64,000 nt of DNA. Origin: Flavobacteriaceae bacterium. GTDB lineage: Bacteria > Bacteroidota > Bacteroidia > Flavobacteriales > Flavobacteriaceae. A model generated the notes under the pieces. The model was not told where the DNA came from. It was given only the letters and a program-made list of their open reading frames with translations, and did not search any database. Of the stretch, positions 5,201 through 57,208 are shown piece by piece. The translations under genes and the position numbers were made by a program. Numbering within the stretch: the stretch's first letter is position 1; the number at the start of each line of letters is the position of its first letter. The stretch spans positions 1-64,000 of the forward strand of contig JAQWSC010000009.1 in the NCBI GenBank assembly GCA_029243385.1, read 5' to 3'.

Positions 5201-5645
5201 AATGGACGAACTCAGGCAATCTGTTCAATTGGCTGTTCATGAACAAAAAGATCCTTTATTAATTTATAAGTTCGAAGCCTTTGAGCTATTTAGAGGGATG
5301 TTGGATGGAGTGAATAAGGAACTTATCTCATTTTTATTCAAAGGAGAACTTCCAACACAAGATCCTTCACAAATTCATGAAGATCGCCAAACTCGAAGAC
5401 GAGAAAAGTTCAACACTTCCAAAGAAGAAGTTTTAAACAGTGACGAAATGGCTGCTCGCAGTAGAGCCGCTGGACAAACACAACAGAGACAAGCAGTCGA
5501 AACCATTGTAAGAGAACAACCAAAAATTGGTAGAAACGATCGTGTGGTAATTAAAAATGTAGTTTCTGGTGAAAATAAAACATTGAAATTCAAGCAAGCT
5601 GAACCATTACTGAAAAAAGGCCAGTGGGTTTTGGTGGAAAACTAA
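2289..5645 (+). CDS. secA: Preprotein translocase ATPase SecA
   Basis: Motor of the Sec pathway, pushing unfolded preproteins through SecYEG. The protein is 1118 residues, compared with about 900 in E. coli; the extra length is typical of Bacteroidota and comes largely from an insert after the DEVDSVLIDDARTPLIISGA block (about residues 298-317). Walker A is MQTGEGKT (about 192-199). The helicase motifs ATNMAGRGTDIKL and RGRSGRQGDPG (about residue 725) are intact. The C-terminal tail has no cysteine-rich zinc-binding motif and ends in a lysine-rich segment (KNVVSGENKTLKFKQ). The glycosyltransferase gene begins 13 bases after the stop, so read-through transcription is likely. Confidence 0.98.
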   Translation: MSFLNSILKVFVGNKAKKDISLIQPTVDKILTAEKQLESLTHDELRNKTIEFKNRIQEVRSPFQEQISEIEKEIEQEEDIDNKEALYQKIDQLEIESYEAVEVLLEQLLPEAFAVVKETAKRFKNNKTLNVTATEFDRELSGSKSYVVLKNDQAVWNQSWDAAGKQVTWDMVHYDVQLVGGIALHQGKIAEMQTGEGKTLVATLPVYLNALTGKGVHLVTVNDYLAKRDSAWMAPIFEFHGLSIDCIDYHKSNSEERKKAYRADITYGTNNEFGFDYLRDNMAHSPDGLVQRKHHYAIVDEVDSVLIDDARTPLIISGAIPEGDRHEFNELKPKVSALVSQQRQYLTSVLAEAKKMIASGNTKECGVLLLRVFRGLPKNKALIKFLSEEGIKQLLQKTENFYMQDNNREMHVIDEELWFVIDEKNNQIELTDKGVEALSKDGEESNFFVMPDIGIEIAKIESQNLEIEKEAELKEVLFKDYGIKSERIHTLNQLLKAYTLFEKDVAYVVMDNKVMIVDEQTGRIMDGRRYSDGLHQAIEAKENVKIEAATQTFASVTLQNYFRMYKKLSGMTGTAVTEAGEFWEIYKLDVIEIPTNRPIARDDRNDLIYKTKREKYNAVIEEVVALSNAGRPVLIGTTSVEISELLSKMLGIRKIHHNVLNAKLHKKEADIVAEAGEPGVVTIATNMAGRGTDIKLSDAVKEAGGLAIVGTERHDSRRVDRQLRGRSGRQGDPGSSQFYVSLEDNLMRLFGSDRVAKMMDRMGLEEGEVIQHSMMTKSIERAQKKVEENNFGIRKRLLEYDDVMNAQREVVYKRRRHALQGSRLKVDIANMIYDTSEVITEFNKNNNDFKNFEFELIRYFSFSSPISQEEFETKSVQEITENIYEIALKRYEEKMAKSAEKAFPVMKRVYEDNSNRYERIVVPFTDGVKTLSVATNLEQAYNSNGSQLIADFEKNISLALIDEAWKTHLRKMDELRQSVQLAVHEQKDPLLIYKFEAFELFRGMLDGVNKELISFLFKGELPTQDPSQIHEDRQTRRREKFNTSKEEVLNSDEMAARSRAAGQTQQRQAVETIVREQPKIGRNDRVVIKNVVSGENKTLKFKQAEPLLKKGQWVLVEN

Positions 5646-5658
5646 ATCACCCAAAACA

Positions 5659-6783
5659 ATGAATATTATTATACTGGGTCCTGCTTACCCCTTTCGAGGC
5701 GGAATTTCAGACACAAACGAAGCATTGTGTAGGAATTTAATGAATGAAGGACACAAAGTCAGTATATGGACGTTTACGTTGCAATATCCCTCGCTATTAT
5801 TTCCTGGAAAAACTCAATATTCACAAAGTAAGGAACCCGAAAAACTTGATATTCAAAGAAAGATTAACAGTTTATCTGCGTGGAACTGGATACAGGTAGC
5901 AAAGCAAATAAACAAGATTCAGCCTGATTTGGTCTTGGTTCGGTATTGGACACCTTTCCTAGCACTTACTCTGGGAACTATTGTTGGAAAACTTAGCAAA
6001 AACATTAAAAAAATTGCCATTACGGACAATATTCGTCCCCATGAAAATACGATTTTTCAAAAACAATTTACCTCTTATTTTTGCAAACAGTTTGATGGGT
6101 TTATTACGCTTTCAAAGGCTGTTGCTGAGGAATTGAGTGCGTTTGTTCAAAAACCAACCCTCTTTTTACCGCATCCCATCAATGACCTGATTCCTCCTCC
6201 TGAGGATCAATTAAAAGCTCAACAAGAATTAGCATTGGATCCTTCCAAAAAGTATTTTCTCTTTTTTGGATTGATTCGTAAATACAAAGGATTGGACTTG
6301 CTACTAAAAGCCTTCGCACATCTTCACAAAAAATACTCTAACACGCATCTTCTGGTTGTAGGAGAACATTATGAATCGCTTCAAAAATATCGTGATTTAG
6401 CAACATCGTTAGAAATAGAAGCCTCCGTTACTTTCGAGAATAGATACATACCCAATCATGAGCTTTCTTACTGGTTTTCTGCGTGTGACTTGGTAGTACA
6501 ACCCTATAAAACTGCAAGTCAAAGTGGGGTTACTCCATTATCGATTTGGTTCAATAAACCTACGCTGGTTACAAAAGTGGGTGGACTTTATGAATCAGTT
6601 ATCCCAGACAAAACGGGATGGATTGTTGATCCTACCGTCGAAGGAATTGAAAAAGGAATGGAAAATTATTTGAATCTAAAAAACACAGAATCGTTTGCAC
6701 ATAATTTTGAATTGCAACAAAAAAAATTAAGTTGGTCTCATTTTTGCAAAGAGTGTATTAAATTCAGCAAAACATTGCCATGA
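5659..6783 (+). CDS. Glycosyltransferase family 4-type (GT-B fold)
   Basis: 374 residues. The N-terminus has the GT-B start GPAYPFRGGISDTN (residues 7-20). The C-terminal Rossmann domain begins near KKYFLFFGLIRKYKGLDLLLKAF and includes the donor-binding segment TASQSGVTPLSIWFNKP around residue 290. Retaining transferases of this class use nucleotide-sugar donors, but the sugar and acceptor cannot be read from the sequence. No transmembrane segment is present, so it is probably cytoplasmic or peripheral, acting on a polysaccharide or glycolipid precursor. It lies 13 bases after secA, with no other glycan genes nearby. Confidence 0.88.
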   Translation: MNIIILGPAYPFRGGISDTNEALCRNLMNEGHKVSIWTFTLQYPSLLFPGKTQYSQSKEPEKLDIQRKINSLSAWNWIQVAKQINKIQPDLVLVRYWTPFLALTLGTIVGKLSKNIKKIAITDNIRPHENTIFQKQFTSYFCKQFDGFITLSKAVAEELSAFVQKPTLFLPHPINDLIPPPEDQLKAQQELALDPSKKYFLFFGLIRKYKGLDLLLKAFAHLHKKYSNTHLLVVGEHYESLQKYRDLATSLEIEASVTFENRYIPNHELSYWFSACDLVVQPYKTASQSGVTPLSIWFNKPTLVTKVGGLYESVIPDKTGWIVDPTVEGIEKGMENYLNLKNTESFAHNFELQQKKLSWSHFCKECIKFSKTLP

Positions 6784-6796
6784 AACGAACATTAAC

Positions 6797-6840
6797 AAAT
6801 TTTAAAAATACATTCACAAAAGAGAATGTTTAAAATTTTT
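6797..6840 (+). terminator. Probable terminator-like inverted repeat after the glycosyltransferase
   Basis: An AT-rich inverted repeat (AAATTTTAAAAATACATTC against GAATGTTTAAAATTT, imperfect) ends in five T. A second short inverted repeat, GCGAGTG-GTTG-CACACGC (one mismatch), lies at 6859-6876. Nothing else is visible in this 144-base gap. Confidence 0.45.
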
Positions 6841-6927
6841 AATGAGAGAACGAGTACAGCGAGTGGTTGCACACGCTCTCAATTTTATAATTATCATAAA
6901 AACAATTAATTACTAAAATTTAAACGT

Positions 6928-7605
6928 GTGAAAAAATCAATCTTTTTTTTATTATTACTATTAAGCAGTTCAGTACTTCAAGCCTGCACAACGAAGCCCC
7001 TTGCTCCTGCTAATAATGCAGTCCCTACTCCAACTCCTATTCCGTCATCCCTTCAACATTTAGAAACTGCATACTTTGCATCGGGATGTTTTTGGTGTGT
7101 CGAAGCTATTTATGAAAGTTTAAAAGGCGTCGAAGAAGTAGTTTCAGGATATGCTGGAGGAAAAACGGCCAACCCAACTTACAAACAAGTTATTTCTGGA
7201 AGAACAGGGCATGCAGAAACTATTCAAGTTTTTTATAATCCAAAAATTATAAGTTTTAAAACGCTTTTGAAAGTATTTTTTGATTCGCACGACCCCACAA
7301 CCCTAAACAGACAGGGACCTGACAGAGGAACGCAATACCGATCAATTGCCTTTTACGAAACAGCAAAAGAAAAGGAAATTATAGAAGCATACATTCAACT
7401 TCTAACAAATAAAAAGGTGTTTAAGGACAAAATCACTACAGAAGTAAAAAAATTGTCTCGTTTTTACAAAGCCGAAGAATATCATCAAGATTACGAAAGA
7501 TTAAACCCAAACAGCACATACATTCAAAGAGTTTCTAAACCTAGACTCCTTAAATTTCAAATCAACAACTCGGCACTTTTAAAAGAAAACGATAATACAC
7601 ACTAA
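6928..7605 (+). CDS. msrA: Peptide-methionine (S)-S-oxide reductase, lipoprotein form
   Basis: Reduces the S-epimer of methionine sulfoxide in proteins. The active site GCFWC is at residues 53-57 with nucleophile Cys54, and the core shows SGYAGG and the D-x-x-T...DRGTQYRS block. Residues 1-20 form a lipoprotein signal ending in the lipobox LQAC (Cys20), followed by a Thr/Pro-rich linker, so the mature enzyme should be anchored outside the inner membrane. The start is GTG at 6928; it is chosen because it begins the complete signal peptide (KKSIFFLLLLLSSS). The stop overlaps the stop of the opposite gene by four bases. Confidence 0.93.
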   Translation: MKKSIFFLLLLLSSSVLQACTTKPLAPANNAVPTPTPIPSSLQHLETAYFASGCFWCVEAIYESLKGVEEVVSGYAGGKTANPTYKQVISGRTGHAETIQVFYNPKIISFKTLLKVFFDSHDPTTLNRQGPDRGTQYRSIAFYETAKEKEIIEAYIQLLTNKKVFKDKITTEVKKLSRFYKAEEYHQDYERLNPNSTYIQRVSKPRLLKFQINNSALLKENDNTH

Positions 7606-52501: not shown

Positions 52502-53607
52502 TCCTCGTTTTGAGGTCGTTCCAAAAAGGTTGATTCAAAATCAATAGAGCTTTTACCTCCTGATATTTTCAAAACGTCTTTGTCTATTTTCACAAATTCC
52601 TTTGAAGAAGTGTTGTAATGATTCACAACGGTTCCGAGAGAAACTCCCAATTTTTCGTGATAGGTTTTATAAACATTCAAGTGACTGGAAAGCTTATCTA
52701 CGTTTTTTAATATATCAGCTATTGATCGTTCCACTTTAAGATTGTGAAGCGCTTTTACAGTAATTTGAAGCATTGGAAACAAACTCATAGGAGATACAAT
52801 CATCACTTTTTTACTATATGCATAAGTAACCAAGTCCTTGGAGTTTATTTTCAGAGTTCCCACACGACTGTTTAGCAAGTCTTGATACAATCCGTCTGCT
52901 GGAATAAACATATAGGCATAATCTGTCGTGTTTTCATTCGGTCGAATGTACTTTGCTGTTTCGTCAATTCTAGATTTGATGTCTTCTTTAAACTTTTTTT
53001 CAAGCACAACAATTTCACTTTTATCGCTGCTTTCAATCATTTTATTGTAGTTGTCCAATGAAAATTTGGCATCAATAGGAATTATAAAATCGCCTACTTT
53101 GACAATTGCGTCAACTGCTTCTCCATTAGTAAACGAATGTTGCATCATAAAAAGCTCAGGAGGAAGTACGTTGGAAAGGAGGTTTTCGAGTTGAATTTCC
53201 CCTAAAATTCCACGTTGTTTTTGGTTGCCAAGAATCTTTTCTAGGGTTTTCATTTGATTGGCAAAATTCAACACTTGTTCGTTGGTTCCTTTGATTTTTT
53301 CCAATTCGGCCGTGACCTCCTTAATTACTTTGTTGGAATCCGTGAATTGCTTTTGCATATTTTGCTTGGAGGAAACATGAAAAGCATTGATCTCTTCGTT
53401 GATATTTTTTAATTTATTTTCAATTTCGGTTCTACTTTGCTTGGCGTTTTCTTGAACTTCTTTACGGATGTTCTGAATTTCTGAACGCAAGCTATCATTA
53501 AGCTGAATCAACAAATCACTGGACGGATTTGAACTTTGGCTTTTTTTGTTGTAAACAAAAAGCACAATAACTGTTATCAAGATAACAATGAGAAGAAGAA
53601 TTTCCAT
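52498..53607 (-). CDS. rmuC: DNA recombination protein RmuC
   Basis: 369 residues. N-terminal membrane helix (LLIVILITVIVLFVY), long coiled coil (about 35-130) and the RmuC nuclease-like domain with QRGILGEIQLENLL, VDAIVKVGDFIIPIDAKF and YMFIPADGLYQDLL. The family limits inversions; the PD-(D/E)XK-like residues DAK are visible. Confidence 0.93.
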   Translation of the reverse strand: MEILLLIVILITVIVLFVYNKKSQSSNPSSDLLIQLNDSLRSEIQNIRKEVQENAKQSRTEIENKLKNINEEINAFHVSSKQNMQKQFTDSNKVIKEVTAELEKIKGTNEQVLNFANQMKTLEKILGNQKQRGILGEIQLENLLSNVLPPELFMMQHSFTNGEAVDAIVKVGDFIIPIDAKFSLDNYNKMIESSDKSEIVVLEKKFKEDIKSRIDETAKYIRPNENTTDYAYMFIPADGLYQDLLNSRVGTLKINSKDLVTYAYSKKVMIVSPMSLFPMLQITVKALHNLKVERSIADILKNVDKLSSHLNVYKTYHEKLGVSLGTVVNHYNTSSKEFVKIDKDVLKISGGKSSIDFESTFLERPQNED

Positions 53608-53688
53608 AAAACAAAGATTAAAAGGTTAAAATTACCGAATTTATAAGACGAAACCTACTTAAAATACTGGAAATTCGTTGTTATTTCG

Positions 53689-54540
53689 CTAGAATCTTCG
53701 GATAAGATTGAACCCAAAATAGATATTCCCCTCACTCCAATCGCCCGAAGCAGAACTCAACATATAATTTGTATTCATTGCTTGTGCGTTGCTAAAGAGT
53801 AACTGAAAGACATGCCCGCCTGTTTCAATATCCAGTCCCAATCCCAACGGGTTGTTATACGGAGAGCTTTTGGCACGATTTAGATGATAGCCATAATCCA
53901 AATTAATGGACATTCGTTTTGAAATTTTATACCGACCTCCTACTCCAATGGCGTATTGGGTATTGCTTTGATCGTCCACAGACACATAATTGTCGTGAAA
54001 CACAGTTGGCATTAGTTGATACGATAGGTTTGTGGATACTTTCCTAGAAAACATCAGTTGAAGAGTGTATCCCAAACGATTGGAAAAAGTAAGATTTGAT
54101 AGATTTTCTTTTTTCAAAGAAGAATTAACCGTAAAGGCATTCAAAGCTACAACAGTAAAAGGAAATCCATTAACTTCTTGTTTTAACAAACGGTATTTTA
54201 AAGCAACATCATACAATTTTTGATATGAGCTTCTCGAAACACTGATATCAACAGCATCAGAAAGGCCGTAAATAAAATTGAGGCGAGTTACCGCATTATC
54301 AAGGCCAAAAAAAGTATCAAATCCGTCTTTTATTGATCCAAATCGGTGAGCGACTGAAAAGGTAAATGCCCCTTTTTCAATGAGTTTGGTAGACTCAAAA
54401 TTGACAATCTTGAGTCCTTTGAAAGTAGCCTCGACTACTTGTGGAACTTGAATAGTATCCAATTCTTTAAGCAAATCTTCTTGAGCAAAAGAATACAAGC
54501 TGAGGGTTAGTATTAAGAGGGTAAATCTATTTTTCATCAT
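53689..54540 (-). CDS. DUF5777 beta-barrel protein
   Basis: About 283 residues from the Met-Met pair at 54540; the longer frame upstream lies inside the preceding gene's tail. A signal peptide (LLILTLSLYSFAQ) is followed by alternating strands (LIEKGAFTFSVAHRFGSIKD, GLSDAVDISVSRSS) ending in NLIRRF, a typical outer-membrane barrel C-terminus. I assign it to DUF5777, a family recurrently found with YceI and cytochrome c genes in Bacteroidota. Ends a minus-strand run with the DOMON, ankyrin and OB-fold genes. Confidence 0.8.
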   Translation of the reverse strand: MMKNRFTLLILTLSLYSFAQEDLLKELDTIQVPQVVEATFKGLKIVNFESTKLIEKGAFTFSVAHRFGSIKDGFDTFFGLDNAVTRLNFIYGLSDAVDISVSRSSYQKLYDVALKYRLLKQEVNGFPFTVVALNAFTVNSSLKKENLSNLTFSNRLGYTLQLMFSRKVSTNLSYQLMPTVFHDNYVSVDDQSNTQYAIGVGGRYKISKRMSINLDYGYHLNRAKSSPYNNPLGLGLDIETGGHVFQLLFSNAQAMNTNYMLSSASGDWSEGNIYFGFNLIRRF

Positions 54541-54542
54541 AA

Positions 54543-55310
54543 CTATTTTTTTATCAATTGTTTGGTAGCCGACTTCCCGTGGGCGTTTAATTTGAGTAAA
54601 TAAACACCTGAATCCCAAGAGTACAAATCTATAACTCCATCGCTATTGGATATATTTTTATCTACAATTTTCTTGCCCAGTATGTTGTAAATTTCCAAAC
54701 GAGCATTTTTTATATCCTTTGGTAAATTAACTCTTACAAATCGATCTGCTGGATTCGGAGTTATTGAAAACGTGGAAAGAACTTTCTGTGATATTCCTAA
54801 TGTAGCGACTGTTGCCATTTTGGCCCCTCGAGCGTAGTGTTGATTGAACTGGGTATCATATCCAACTGCATAGAGCAGTGGAAAAGAACCTGCGGAAACT
54901 GGAAAATCAAAATCGTTTGAATCGGAGGAATTAATAGCTCGCGTTGCAACTACGGTTCTTACTGCATTGCTGACAATATTTGAAGTTACTGTCCAATTGT
55001 TAGTGACATCCATGGTAGGTTTATTCAGACTTCCTGTCATGTTGCGATCTTCCAATCCGCTTGAGTTGTACACAATGACGTCATCTCCTGGATTCCCCAT
55101 TCCATTTCCACCAGAAACACCAGGAGCTACTGCCAAATATCGATTAGAAGGACCTACAAGCGTCATCGTAACCGTATCGGAAGTAGTGTCAATATCGAAC
55201 TTTACAGTAACGTTAAAAGGACTGTATAAAGAAATCGTTCCTGTGGATAAATCTTGTCCAAAGAGCGGAGAAATCACCAAAAGAGATACAATGAGAATAA
55301 TTTTTTTCAT
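54543..55310 (-). CDS. T9SS-secreted DOMON-like protein
   Basis: 255 residues. Signal peptide (to FGQ), then ~150 residues resembling a DOMON beta-sandwich (TVTMTLVGPSNRYLAVAPG, GDDVIVYNSSGLEDRN, VVATRAINSSDSNDFDF), and a type A T9SS sorting domain (STFSITPNPADRFVRVNLP to SATKQLIKK). DOMON domains bind heme or sugar in other proteins; an axial ligand cannot be assigned here. T9SS would place it on the cell surface or in the medium. Confidence 0.75.
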   Translation of the reverse strand: MKKIILIVSLLVISPLFGQDLSTGTISLYSPFNVTVKFDIDTTSDTVTMTLVGPSNRYLAVAPGVSGGNGMGNPGDDVIVYNSSGLEDRNMTGSLNKPTMDVTNNWTVTSNIVSNAVRTVVATRAINSSDSNDFDFPVSAGSFPLLYAVGYDTQFNQHYARGAKMATVATLGISQKVLSTFSITPNPADRFVRVNLPKDIKNARLEIYNILGKKIVDKNISNSDGVIDLYSWDSGVYLLKLNAHGKSATKQLIKK

Positions 55311-55822
55311 AATGAAGTGTTTAATAATGTCATCAGCTTTGTATCGTTGAACATAACTGCATAATCCAAAGGAGAATAATTTTGAGCATCTACACTGTGA
55401 ATATTGGCTCCAGCTTCGAGTAACATTTGTATTGTGTTCGTGTTTCTAAACATTGTAGCATAATGAAGGGCTGTTGTGCCACTTTCGTCAGACAAATTAA
55501 CCGTTGCATTTTTTTGTAACAACTGCACAACAATATCCTGATGATTTTTTACTACAGCTGCCATCAAAGGAGTACCAAAACTACTGTTAAAATCAACATC
55601 CGCTCCGTTTTGTAAAAGAAAGGAAACCACGTCTTTATTGTTGTAATAACAAGCCAAAACCAATGGAGAATACCCATTGTTATTGGGGGTATTGATTTGA
55701 TTTGGAGACTTTTCATGCAAAGTTTGTAATTCCAAAACTGTTCCTTTTCGACAAATATCATAAATATCTTTGGGTTGTGAGCAACCTAATATCAAAAACA
55801 CTACCAACCACGTTTTATTCAT
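55307..55822 (-). CDS. Ankyrin-repeat lipoprotein
   Basis: 171 residues from ATG 55822, chosen because it begins a lipoprotein signal (MNKTWLVVFLILGC). About four ankyrin repeats follow (NNNGYSPLVLACYYNNKDVV, GTPLMAAVVKNHQDIV, GTTALHYATMFRNTNTIQ, NYSPLDYAVM). A periplasmic protein-protein interaction role is likely. It overlaps the OB-fold gene by eight bases. Confidence 0.85.
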   Translation of the reverse strand: MNKTWLVVFLILGCSQPKDIYDICRKGTVLELQTLHEKSPNQINTPNNNGYSPLVLACYYNNKDVVSFLLQNGADVDFNSSFGTPLMAAVVKNHQDIVVQLLQKNATVNLSDESGTTALHYATMFRNTNTIQMLLEAGANIHSVDAQNYSPLDYAVMFNDTKLMTLLNTSL

Positions 55823-56204
55823 TAGAAACAAAATTACATTGATCCAATTTAATTTCGCCAAGTAAGTCATCAAAGCCAACACAACGACCTTTGACCGTAA
55901 TTAATGATTGCGGTAAAACAGCTGCAAATGTGTCGTTAAATGAACAATGAATCTTATCGTGAAAAACAAGCGATCGATTCGATACTTGCTTTGCAACTCC
56001 TGAAACGGTAATTGTCTGATTTGAATATTTGAGAATAGCTTTCTCATGGTTATTTTCAAAATCATCCATCAATTGTTTTGCTGAAACAGCATAAACAACA
56101 TCTTCAACCTCAATATTTCGATGATCTTTTGCTATGAAAAGATAGAGTCCAATGCTTCCCAAAAAGAACACAAAAACAACCAATACCAATCTTTTTGAAG
56201 ACAT
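55815..56204 (-). CDS. OB-fold (tRNA_anti-like) membrane-anchored protein
   Basis: 129 residues: one N-terminal helix (LVLVVFVFFLGSIGLYLFIA), then a small beta-barrel region with SAKQLMDDFENNHEKAILKY and YSNQTITVSGVAKQV, matching the tRNA_anti-like family. Despite the name the family is exported and its function is unknown. First gene of the minus-strand run and divergent from the cytochrome gene. Confidence 0.8.
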   Translation of the reverse strand: MSSKRLVLVVFVFFLGSIGLYLFIAKDHRNIEVEDVVYAVSAKQLMDDFENNHEKAILKYSNQTITVSGVAKQVSNRSLVFHDKIHCSFNDTFAAVLPQSLITVKGRCVGFDDLLGEIKLDQCNFVSNE

Positions 56205-56268
56205 ATTCGAAAATGTTTATTTACTAATTTAGAAAAAAATAATTATATTGGTTAAATAAAAAAAAAAT

Positions 56269-56673
56269 ATGATGCTATTAAAAACGATTTGTTTGCCTAA
56301 AAACCCCTCAATTGTTCTGCTATTTAGTTTTCTGTTGTTGGCTTCCTGCGGTGGAGATAGCTCAGATGACCTTGTTGAAAAAACTGAAGATCCAACCGAA
56401 AATCCGAACGAAACCGCAGCATACACCTATACATCGCATGTGAAAAGCATCATGACAAACAATTGTGTTTCGTGTCATTCCAGTACACCTATTAACGGAG
56501 CGTCAAGTTCGTTGGTAACCTACGAAGATGTGAAAAATTACGGAACAAGTATAATCAATCGCATTACTCGAAATGAAGGAGAAGCAGGTTTTATGCCTAA
56601 AGGAGGGACCAAATTGCCGCAAAACCTAATCGATCAAATTATTCAGTGGAAAGAAGATGAGTATCCGCAATAA
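56269..56673 (+). CDS. Monoheme cytochrome c lipoprotein
   Basis: 134 residues. Lipobox ASC at Cys27, an acidic linker, then one heme c site CVSCH (66-70) with a probable Met ligand (GFMPKGG, Met109). Electron carrier anchored outside the inner membrane. The ATG leaves 64 bases to the divergent gene. YceI begins inside its last 17 bases, so the two are translationally coupled. Confidence 0.88.
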   Translation: MMLLKTICLPKNPSIVLLFSFLLLASCGGDSSDDLVEKTEDPTENPNETAAYTYTSHVKSIMTNNCVSCHSSTPINGASSSLVTYEDVKNYGTSIINRITRNEGEAGFMPKGGTKLPQNLIDQIIQWKEDEYPQ

Positions 56674-57208
56674 AGGAATAGCCTTTTTTTTTGGGTTGCT
56701 ATTTTGTAACCTCTCCATAGCACAAACCAAATACATTACCCGCTCAGGAGTACTTGGATTTGAGTCATCAATGGCTTCTTTTGAACCTGTAATTGCAGAA
56801 AATAAGGATGTAACTGCTGTCTTGGACACTAACAACGGGAACATTGCTATCTTAGCACTGGTAAGAGGTTTTCGTTTTCCAAATGCTCTTATGGAAGAGC
56901 ATTTTAATGAGAATTATGCCGAAACAGATCGCTTTCCTAAAGCAACCTTCTCTGGAACGATACTTGATTATGAAAACATCCATAGCCAAAAACAATGTGT
57001 CATTAGTGGTGCATTAAGTTTTCATGGGGTTACACAATCATTTCAAAACATTGTAGCTCATATTGAAATAAACCCAAACAGTATCCGACTCAAAGGAACG
57101 TTTTTGGGTACTGTTGCAGATTTTGATATCCAAATACCCAAATTGGTACGCAACAAAATTTCTAAGGATATCGAAATTTCGTTTGATCTGCTTCTAAAAA
57201 ATCTCTAG
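56657..57208 (+). CDS. YceI family exported protein
   Basis: 183 residues. Signal peptide (to SIAQ), then a YceI lipocalin-like barrel (FEPVIAENKDVTAVLDTNNG, ETDRFPKATFSGTILDYEN, VISGALSFHGVTQ). YceI proteins bind isoprenoid lipids such as quinones. It overlaps the cytochrome c gene and ends tail-to-tail with carB (four bases). A quinone carrier next to a cytochrome hints at a periplasmic redox role (inference). Confidence 0.88.
   Translation: MSIRNKGIAFFFGLLFCNLSIAQTKYITRSGVLGFESSMASFEPVIAENKDVTAVLDTNNGNIAILALVRGFRFPNALMEEHFNENYAETDRFPKATFSGTILDYENIHSQKQCVISGALSFHGVTQSFQNIVAHIEINPNSIRLKGTFLGTVADFDIQIPKLVRNKISKDIEISFDLLLKNL

Follow-up and report, generated by a model that had tools for sequence, protein, structure and literature searches.

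A DUF5777 barrel and cytochrome c core beside a separable ankyrin–DOMON pair in a Flavobacteriaceae genome

Six genes lie between carB and rmuC (rmuC to carB, 53607-57205) in a 64,000-nucleotide stretch of a Flavobacteriaceae genome (contig JAQWSC010000009.1, positions 1 to 64,000; hereafter the window). They encode a DUF5777 outer-membrane β-barrel, a monoheme cytochrome c, a YceI-family protein, an OB-fold protein, an ankyrin-repeat protein and a DOMON-like protein with a type IX secretion system (T9SS) sorting tail. A first-pass annotation of the DNA had described these genes as one cluster and suggested that they allow electron transfer reaching the cell surface. All six open reading frames (ORFs) of 53689-57208 were confirmed at the positions given, and Pfam or motif matches bore out the description of each gene (Table 1). 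The assembly, 99% complete, totals 1.69 Mb over 15 contigs. On the minus strand the order from the divergent gap is OB, ankyrin, DOMON, DUF5777, with overlaps of 8 bp and 4 bp followed by a 2 bp gap; the ORF list starts DUF5777 at a TTG at 54618, and an ATG at 54540 comes directly after the DOMON stop. The plus-strand cytochrome and YceI genes overlap by 17 bp. Export was assigned from the N-termini by eye, without a signal-peptide program: the cytochrome carries a lipobox-like LLASC, the OB protein an N-terminal anchor, and the ankyrin protein a lipobox-like LGC that is not typical, most ankyrin orthologues being without one. We found that the six genes are two units, a core (DUF5777, cytochrome c, YceI and OB) and a satellite pair (ankyrin and DOMON).

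Table 1. Features of the locus, with related gene clusters at paralogous loci in the last row
Feature	Position	Strand	Basis
DUF5777 outer-membrane β-barrel; core	53689..54540	-	Pfam 293 bits; AlphaFold2 model
DOMON-like domain protein with T9SS type A sorting tail; satellite	54543..55310	-	Por_Secre_tail 43.9, TIGR04183 57.2 bits
DOMON His158 codon, candidate heme b axial ligand	54837..54839	-	invariant in 32/32 distinct relatives
DOMON Met71 codon, candidate heme b axial ligand	55098..55100	-	invariant in 32/32 distinct relatives
Ankyrin-repeat protein, export-type N-terminus; satellite partner of DOMON	55307..55822	-	Pfam Ank 88.5 bits
OB-fold protein (tRNA_anti-like), N-terminal membrane anchor; core	55815..56204	-	Pfam 34.2 bits
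Divergent intergenic gap, 64 bp, between two transcription units	56205..56268	.	ORF coordinates
Monoheme cytochrome c, predicted lipoprotein; core	56269..56673	+	CVSCH and later Met-Pro
Heme c attachment motif CVSCH	56464..56478	+	columns C66, C69, H70 invariant in cytochrome alignment A2
Cytochrome Met109 codon, candidate sixth heme ligand	56593..56595	+	nearly invariant in alignment A2
YceI-family lipocalin-like protein; core	56657..57208	+	Pfam 40.7 bits; AlphaFold2 pLDDT 91.4
NrfD/4Fe-4S/DUF5777/cytochrome clusters	L036:12008-18310, L068:5648-15098, L152:9160-15274, L179:9171-14249

The core is held together by co-occurrence across genomes. The window's barrel matches DUF5777 (PF19089) at 293 bits against a cut-off of 23.1, over positions 1-247 of 247, and its closest named relatives, at about 62-66% identity, belong to Flavobacteriaceae, among them Mangrovimonas, Winogradskyella and Flavivirga. 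DUF5777 was matched in 33 of 60 genomes, the window's own included (32 above the cut-off), and in 98 of 247 genomes spread over the phylum Bacteroidota, five of them through weak partial matches only; none of 14 control genomes matched. The first-pass annotation had named a lack of co-conservation across Flavobacteriaceae as grounds for refuting it; when this was checked the core passed strongly. Among the 59 relatives, with the own genome left out, DUF5777 occurred in 31 and the YceI subfamily in 31; 30 had both, one had each alone and 27 had neither (Fisher p 1.6e-14; this and our other Fisher tests ignore phylogeny). OB matches of at least 50 bits were found in 23 of the 31 DUF5777 genomes versus 2 of the 28 others. 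YceI-subfamily scores were well separated, the lowest being 183 bits save for G039 at 131, with the next match below at 46 bits. The thresholds (at least 130 bits for YceI, at least 50 for OB) were chosen after the scores were known, and profiles A3 and A4 were built partly from genomes then tested with them. A partial DUF5777 match in G009 (86 bits) was scored positive and a sub-threshold match in G038 negative; two genomes without DUF5777 hold other core genes, G039 (76% complete) having the YceI subfamily and OB, and G035 having OB.

The core genes are also neighbours. We collected 37 DUF5777 neighbourhoods from relatives, 80 from named genomes and 40 from distant classes, sets that partly overlap in that some named genomes also count as relatives. 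Within 5 kb of DUF5777, the YceI, short cytochrome and OB genes were found at 79, 74 and 69 of the 80 named-genome loci, a set dominated by near relatives since it holds the best 80 of 587 confirmed. The corresponding counts were 32, 30 and 24 of the 37 relatives' loci, and 26, 23 and 5 of 38 phylum loci (L182 and L187, whose DUF5777 ORF was lost by the ORF caller, were left out of the 40). OB near DUF5777 is thus rare outside the window's order. Loci L189-L218 span only about 3-4 kb, so missing neighbours there carry little meaning. Classified by neighbourhood, 192 distinct DUF5777 proteins comprised 133 with cytochrome and YceI near, 17 with cytochrome only, 7 fused to a cytochrome, 30 with YceI only and 5 with neither. 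One arrangement, YceI and cytochrome on one strand and OB diverging from them, was seen in 30 related loci; that gene order varies elsewhere while membership stays constant argues for more than frozen synteny. Further, eight loci carry two tandem modules whose first and second copies separate in the DUF5777, YceI and OB trees (support 1.0 in each), and these three genes were therefore duplicated together.

The window cytochrome has the features of a class I cytochrome, CVSCH with a distal Met109; its match to Cytochrome_CBB3 is 22.8 bits, under the cut-off of 27, and all Pfam cytochrome models were below theirs. Among 149 distinct short cytochromes near DUF5777, the heme motif is CXXCH in 120 and CX4CH in 29 (e.g. 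L033, L041 and L055), and a downstream Met-Pro is found in 147. The YceI protein matches its Pfam family at 40.7 bits against a cut-off of 23.7. Its AlphaFold2 model (predicted local distance difference test, pLDDT, 91.4) is closest in Foldseek to 2x34 and 2x32 (E 1e-10; TMq 0.75 to 2x34), structures of a Saccharophagus polyisoprenoid-binding domain, of which one of two is described as containing ubiquinone-8 (PMC8981238). This fold similarity suggests a quinone or polyisoprenoid as a candidate YceI ligand. A second YceI gene of the same genome (G000:C11:9080-9565, L001) scores higher on the Pfam model than the module's copy, at 87.3 bits; an own-genome search with PF04264 listed only that copy and missed the window's YceI, and its negative was not used. 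The OB protein matches tRNA_anti-like at 34.2 bits (cut-off 23.5) and has a weak best structure match in profile search to 3f1z, a putative nucleic-acid-binding lipoprotein (E 2e-4); we assign it core membership and propose no further function.

The barrel and the cytochrome are most directly linked by natural fusions. In the order of genome G088, where DUF5777 occurs in 40 of 114 genomes, seven genomes (families f39, f58, f59 and f60) encode a single 407-440 aa ORF in which a cytochrome c is N-terminal to DUF5777. This check covered the 35 of 40 loci that yielded a DUF5777 ORF. All seven proteins have a CX4CH motif and a later Met-Pro. In the three that were scanned only DUF5777 exceeded its Pfam cut-off, the cytochrome part being recognised by a custom profile (18.6-31.6 bits), the heme motif and Met-Pro. 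The fused proteins sit in one clade of nine sequences (support 1.0), the remaining two being a 229-aa piece next to a cytochrome gene and a 334-aa protein that lacks a heme motif. The AlphaFold2 model of the window's barrel (pLDDT 90.9) has 12 strands. An even strand number puts both barrel ends in the periplasm, which would place the heme of a fused protein at the inner mouth. At two fusion loci (L219:158-5450 and L220:456-5637) the fused gene is accompanied by genes for an outer-membrane-like protein, MbnP, CCP_MauG and a molybdopterin oxidoreductase; MbnP and CCP homologues also occur in neighbourhoods L038 and L047.

Paralogous DUF5777 loci point the same way. Four of the cytochrome-only loci, from four families (the second copy of L036, L068, L152 and L179), combine cytochrome and DUF5777 with a 4Fe-4S protein, an NrfD-type protein and another cytochrome c, as confirmed by Pfam for L036 and L068. 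These two loci also encode a six-heme-motif cytochrome that gives Cytochrome_C7 and MtrC/MtrF-like matches, and L068 carries a cytochrome c assembly protein. Where YceI is missing, we infer, a quinol-linked NrfD-type protein can stand between the quinone pool and cytochrome c.

The satellite pair has a different signature. Of the six proteins, the DOMON protein alone is marked for the surface by T9SS, through a type A sorting tail matching TIGR04183 at 57.2 bits (cut-off 23) and Por_Secre_tail at 43.9. SprA_N was detected in 56 of 60 genomes, the own included, so that the protein has both the tail and the secretion system expected of T9SS cargo. Its domain matches DOMON at 30.5 bits, under the Pfam cut-off of 32.7, and a relative at L049 at 24.2. 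Tail-containing profiles drew LTD-like T9SS proteins and lipoproteins of about 155 aa, and DOMON counts therefore rest on a domain-only profile built from 13 proteins; 'DOMON' labels on lipocalin-like lipoproteins of about 155 aa (e.g. L040, L044, L065 and L070) were dropped as profile drift. A search made independently of DUF5777 was positive in 18 of 149 family genomes, the own included. All 32 distinct DOMON proteins, the 13 behind the profile among them, keep Met71 and His158 unchanged. Such a Met and His are described as holding heme b in the cytochrome of cellobiose dehydrogenase and as lacking conservation in DOMONs that bind sugar (PMC10691727). Searches of solved structures with profiles A5 and A6 (domain only) matched no DOMON structure; the ligands are therefore assigned from conservation together with this published criterion, not from a structural alignment. 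Because both residues are invariant and of the heme-ligand type, the DOMON protein most likely carries heme b and is T9SS-exported.

The ankyrin gene adjoins DOMON in 17 of 18 DOMON-centred loci in other genomes (17 fetched and G001), L233 being the exception without ankyrin; L101, with ankyrin and only a piece of the DOMON tail, and L090, with a second ankyrin gene lacking DOMON, were left out of this count. The ankyrin protein Cj1386 is reported to bind heme through Tyr57 and supply catalase in the cytoplasm (PMC11442138). By analogy the ankyrin partner may load the DOMON heme as Cj1386 does for catalase; one Tyr is invariant across 15 aligned ankyrin proteins, which is a lead only. The slot between OB and DUF5777 that DOMON occupies in the window is filled by another small T9SS protein in L037, L042, L048, L050, L051 and others, that of L048 having a weak lamin-tail domain (LTD) match of 17.1 bits against 34.3.

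The pair survives where the core does not. In G001, of the same genus, the site reads carB, ankyrin, DOMON, rmuC, with no core genes on either side of the intact pair; searches of that genome (92% complete) for DUF5777, the YceI subfamily and OB found none, and the cytochrome was covered at the site only. In G400, a 1.9 Mb genome, the site (L238, about 5570-7430) has an intact ankyrin–DOMON pair amid core fragments: 57 model positions of YceI with a stop, about 66 aligned residues of OB and 75 of DUF5777. No cytochrome was found in its 14-kb stretch, to which the searches for OB and cytochrome in this genome were confined. The G400 site is the window's layout caught in decay. In G005 carB lies directly before rmuC. 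Loss and decay of the core around a surviving pair in G001 and G400 mean that the six genes are two units, and together with the bare carB-rmuC site these cases led us to set aside a single six-gene unit. The earlier description therefore stands for the core, which is co-conserved, and fails for the ankyrin and DOMON genes, which are separable and have outlasted the loss or decay of the others in two genomes. The site itself matters too. Alignment confirmed carB in 16 of the 18 DOMON-centred loci, and location thus explains part of the linkage between DOMON and the core. It does not explain the whole: at ten loci (L049, L056, L168, L114, L125, L126, L134, L136, L240 and L243) the pair sits with the core on a fetched stretch that lacks carB. 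In Flavobacteriaceae the surroundings of carB repeatedly hold the core, the pair or both, or else nothing, as in the window, L101, L230, L231, L232-L239, L241, L242 and L244-L248.

Together, these observations suggest a role in electron transfer. The core is probably an old unit, spread across many Bacteroidota, that moves electrons at the outer membrane, because its heme protein and its membrane pore are one fused protein in some relatives. With moderate confidence we read it as an outer-membrane porin–cytochrome redox unit of Bacteroidota, a reading drawn from the cytochrome–DUF5777 fusions, the co-occurrence, clustering, joint duplication and joint loss of the core genes, the respiratory-type paralogue operons and the YceI fold. 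In such a unit the lipid-anchored cytochrome c would dock at the periplasmic mouth of the 12-strand barrel and swap electrons with a small redox-active solute entering the pore from outside, and YceI with its quinone or polyisoprenoid, plus the membrane-anchored OB protein, would provide the connection to the inner membrane. Class I cytochromes with His/Met ligation are generally of high potential. As a His/Met heme suggests such a potential here, we favour a unit that oxidises a small solute inward, or quenches oxidants, over one that reduces low-potential minerals. The ankyrin and DOMON genes stand apart from the core and would supply a T9SS-exported heme b protein and its partner. The transfer role proposed in the first-pass annotation thus finds support in the fusions, the paralogue operons and the DOMON ligands. 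Its extension to the cell surface does not, because the fusion implies that the cytochrome lies where a narrow barrel opens to the periplasm, and a single heme cannot span the membrane.

Several observations weigh against this redox reading. The fold of the barrel model would say pore, not function: its nearest folds, FapF (Z 18.7), a COG4313 channel (18.1), KdgM (17.9) and also NanC (Z 17-19), with FadL lower, are general transport porins and channels. As the cytochrome counts come from profile matches, the presence of the heme motif in all of them is in part a result of the selection. FoxE, the top solved-structure match of the cytochrome, amounts to two stretches of about 15 bits, with many ordinary cytochromes c close behind. 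The fused cytochromes carry CX4CH and that of the window CXXCH. Thirty of the 192 DUF5777 proteins have YceI but no cytochrome near, some of them beside a full module or on short stretches. The cytochromes also have acidic residues after the lipid cysteine, at least two falling at +5 to +9 in 90 of 141 and at +2 to +6 in 43 of 141. Those at +5 to +9 recall a surface-export signal, which would put the cytochrome outside and not in the periplasm. The published position of the acidic surface lipoprotein export signal (LES) is +2 to +6 (PMC5080379), an optimum that the cytochrome's acidic residues do not match well. Finally, our literature search found no paper that names DUF5777 and could lend the reading biochemical support, and none joining YceI, cytochrome c, Bacteroidetes, outer membrane and electron transfer.

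Among the closest known parallels is Cyc2, a fused cytochrome–porin of the iron oxidase family. This protein is described as having an N-terminal monoheme cytochrome predicted at the periplasmic mouth of its barrel, 16 predicted strands, a CXXCH and an AXPXFAR[Q/K][T/Y] motif (PMC8406198). The seven fused DUF5777 relatives share its layout, a monoheme cytochrome c N-terminal to an outer-membrane barrel. However, the DUF5777 model has 12 strands, the fused copies have CX4CH, cytochrome and barrel are separate genes in the window, and the Cyc2 motif was found in none of 187 cytochrome ORFs, fused ones included. The core resembles Cyc2 in layout but is not Cyc2. MtrCAB likewise combines an outer-membrane barrel with a c-type cytochrome, and two DUF5777 operons hold the six-heme-motif MtrC/MtrF-like and c7-like cytochrome described above. 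The Mtr barrel, though, is reported to have 26 strands and a decaheme partner (PMC8406198), against the 12 strands and one heme motif of the window. Cbp2D/Cbp2E resemble the core as an exported redox system in which a YceI-type quinone-binding domain is joined to single-heme c-type cytochrome domains (PMC8981238), but there these lie in one polypeptide with a carbohydrate-binding module, whereas here they are separate proteins with a barrel. The DOMON protein, for its part, is like the heme b DOMONs (the cellobiose dehydrogenase cytochrome and CYBDOM) in its conserved Met and His, spaced by 87 residues here and 93 in CG8399 (PMC10691727); it differs in being a stand-alone T9SS-exported protein beside an ankyrin protein, with no profile match to a solved DOMON structure.

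The main rival is that the core is an envelope antioxidant, in which YceI-bound quinone quenches lipid peroxyl radicals, cytochrome c re-reduces it and the barrel admits or expels peroxidised products. The model for this is BcnA–LcoA, a YceI-family lipocalin genetically linked to a heme protein, the membrane cytochrome b561 LcoA; Burkholderia cenocepacia mutants are reported to show more lipid peroxidation (PMC9113575). The core likewise pairs YceI with a heme protein, and its barrel resembles FadL- and COG4313-type channels for hydrophobic molecules. Here, however, LcoA would have to be replaced by a cytochrome c lipoprotein with an outer-membrane barrel, and no cytochrome b561 was found among the nine window proteins scanned with Pfam, relatives not having been searched. 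The 17 DUF5777 proteins with cytochrome and no YceI near, including the four respiratory-type operons, also speak against it, as does the fusion, which links cytochrome to barrel; no ORF in the loci scanned links cytochrome to YceI. We consider an antioxidant role unlikely, though the strongest of the alternatives.

Less probable again is transport, in which a hydrophobic or quinone-like molecule would pass through a DUF5777 channel, YceI would be its periplasmic carrier and the cytochrome would serve as a redox gate or accessory. The channels nearest the barrel model and the polyisoprenoid-binding fold predicted for YceI agree with it, but 157 of 192 DUF5777 proteins have a cytochrome c nearby or fused to them, the cytochrome's Met-Pro is almost always kept (147 of 149), and multiheme and NrfD proteins surround the paralogues; we regard this role as improbable.

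We give still less weight to a single surface conduit made of all six proteins and ending in a DOMON cytochrome. The exact six-gene order recurs in L109, L125, L126, L134, L242 and L244, pair and core lie together on fetched stretches without carB at the ten loci above, and DUF5777 is present in 14 of 18 DOMON genomes (the G400 fragment counted) versus 56 of 131 without DOMON (p 0.006). Yet the pair occurs without the core in G442 (87% complete) and G497 (73%) as in G001, and DOMON alone in G468; the core has decayed around the pair in G400; pair and core lie apart in G030, G437, G439 and at one of two G393 sites; the shared carB position accounts for part of the linkage; and DOMON is near DUF5777 in only 10 of the 80 named loci. 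Such a conduit is therefore quite improbable. Electron supply to secreted lytic polysaccharide monooxygenases (LPMOs), suggested by Cbp2D, which joins a YceI-type X158 with c-type cytochrome domains and whose CjX183 cytochrome is reported to reduce bacterial LPMOs (PMC8981238), is scarcely credible and, for LPMO_10 in this group, largely refuted, as LPMO_10 was found in 0 of 60 genomes, the own included (a control was positive in 1 of 14, and other LPMO families were not searched).

Other genes recur near DUF5777. A gene for a lipoprotein-like protein of 355-364 aa lies about 2-10 kb away in six loci including L042, L044, L048, L050 and L065, the L050 copy having no Pfam match, and in the same six loci sigma-factor-like, FecR-like and large receptor-like genes recur by eye. 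A lipoprotein of about 155-180 aa, lipocalin-like by eye, is in or near the module in L040, L044, L065, L070, L072, L074, L076, L083 and L124; the L065 copy had no Pfam match. A FAD-dependent oxidoreductase, of the DAO family in L061, is near DUF5777 in five genomes of three families (L033, L052, L061, L062 and L063), and presumably resembles L-2-hydroxyglutarate oxidase.

To our knowledge, Bacteroidota are not usually counted among the bacteria with outer-membrane electron conduits. Returning to the porin–cytochrome reading of the core, we tentatively propose, as a possibility somewhat short of probable, that DUF5777 and a monoheme cytochrome c form a third kind of porin–cytochrome beside Cyc2 and MtrAB, which would couple the quinone pool, through YceI in most lineages and through NrfD-type operons in others, to external redox-active solutes, which was fused into a single protein in one lineage and which would have a separate T9SS heme b protein beside it. 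The natural cytochrome–DUF5777 fusion offers one protein in which the idea could be tested directly. Bacteroidota are abundant degraders in sea, soil and sediment. If the reading is true, about two fifths of the sampled genomes of the phylum would possess a compact redox gate in DUF5777, and the separate T9SS-exported heme b protein would give some of these bacteria a surface cytochrome.

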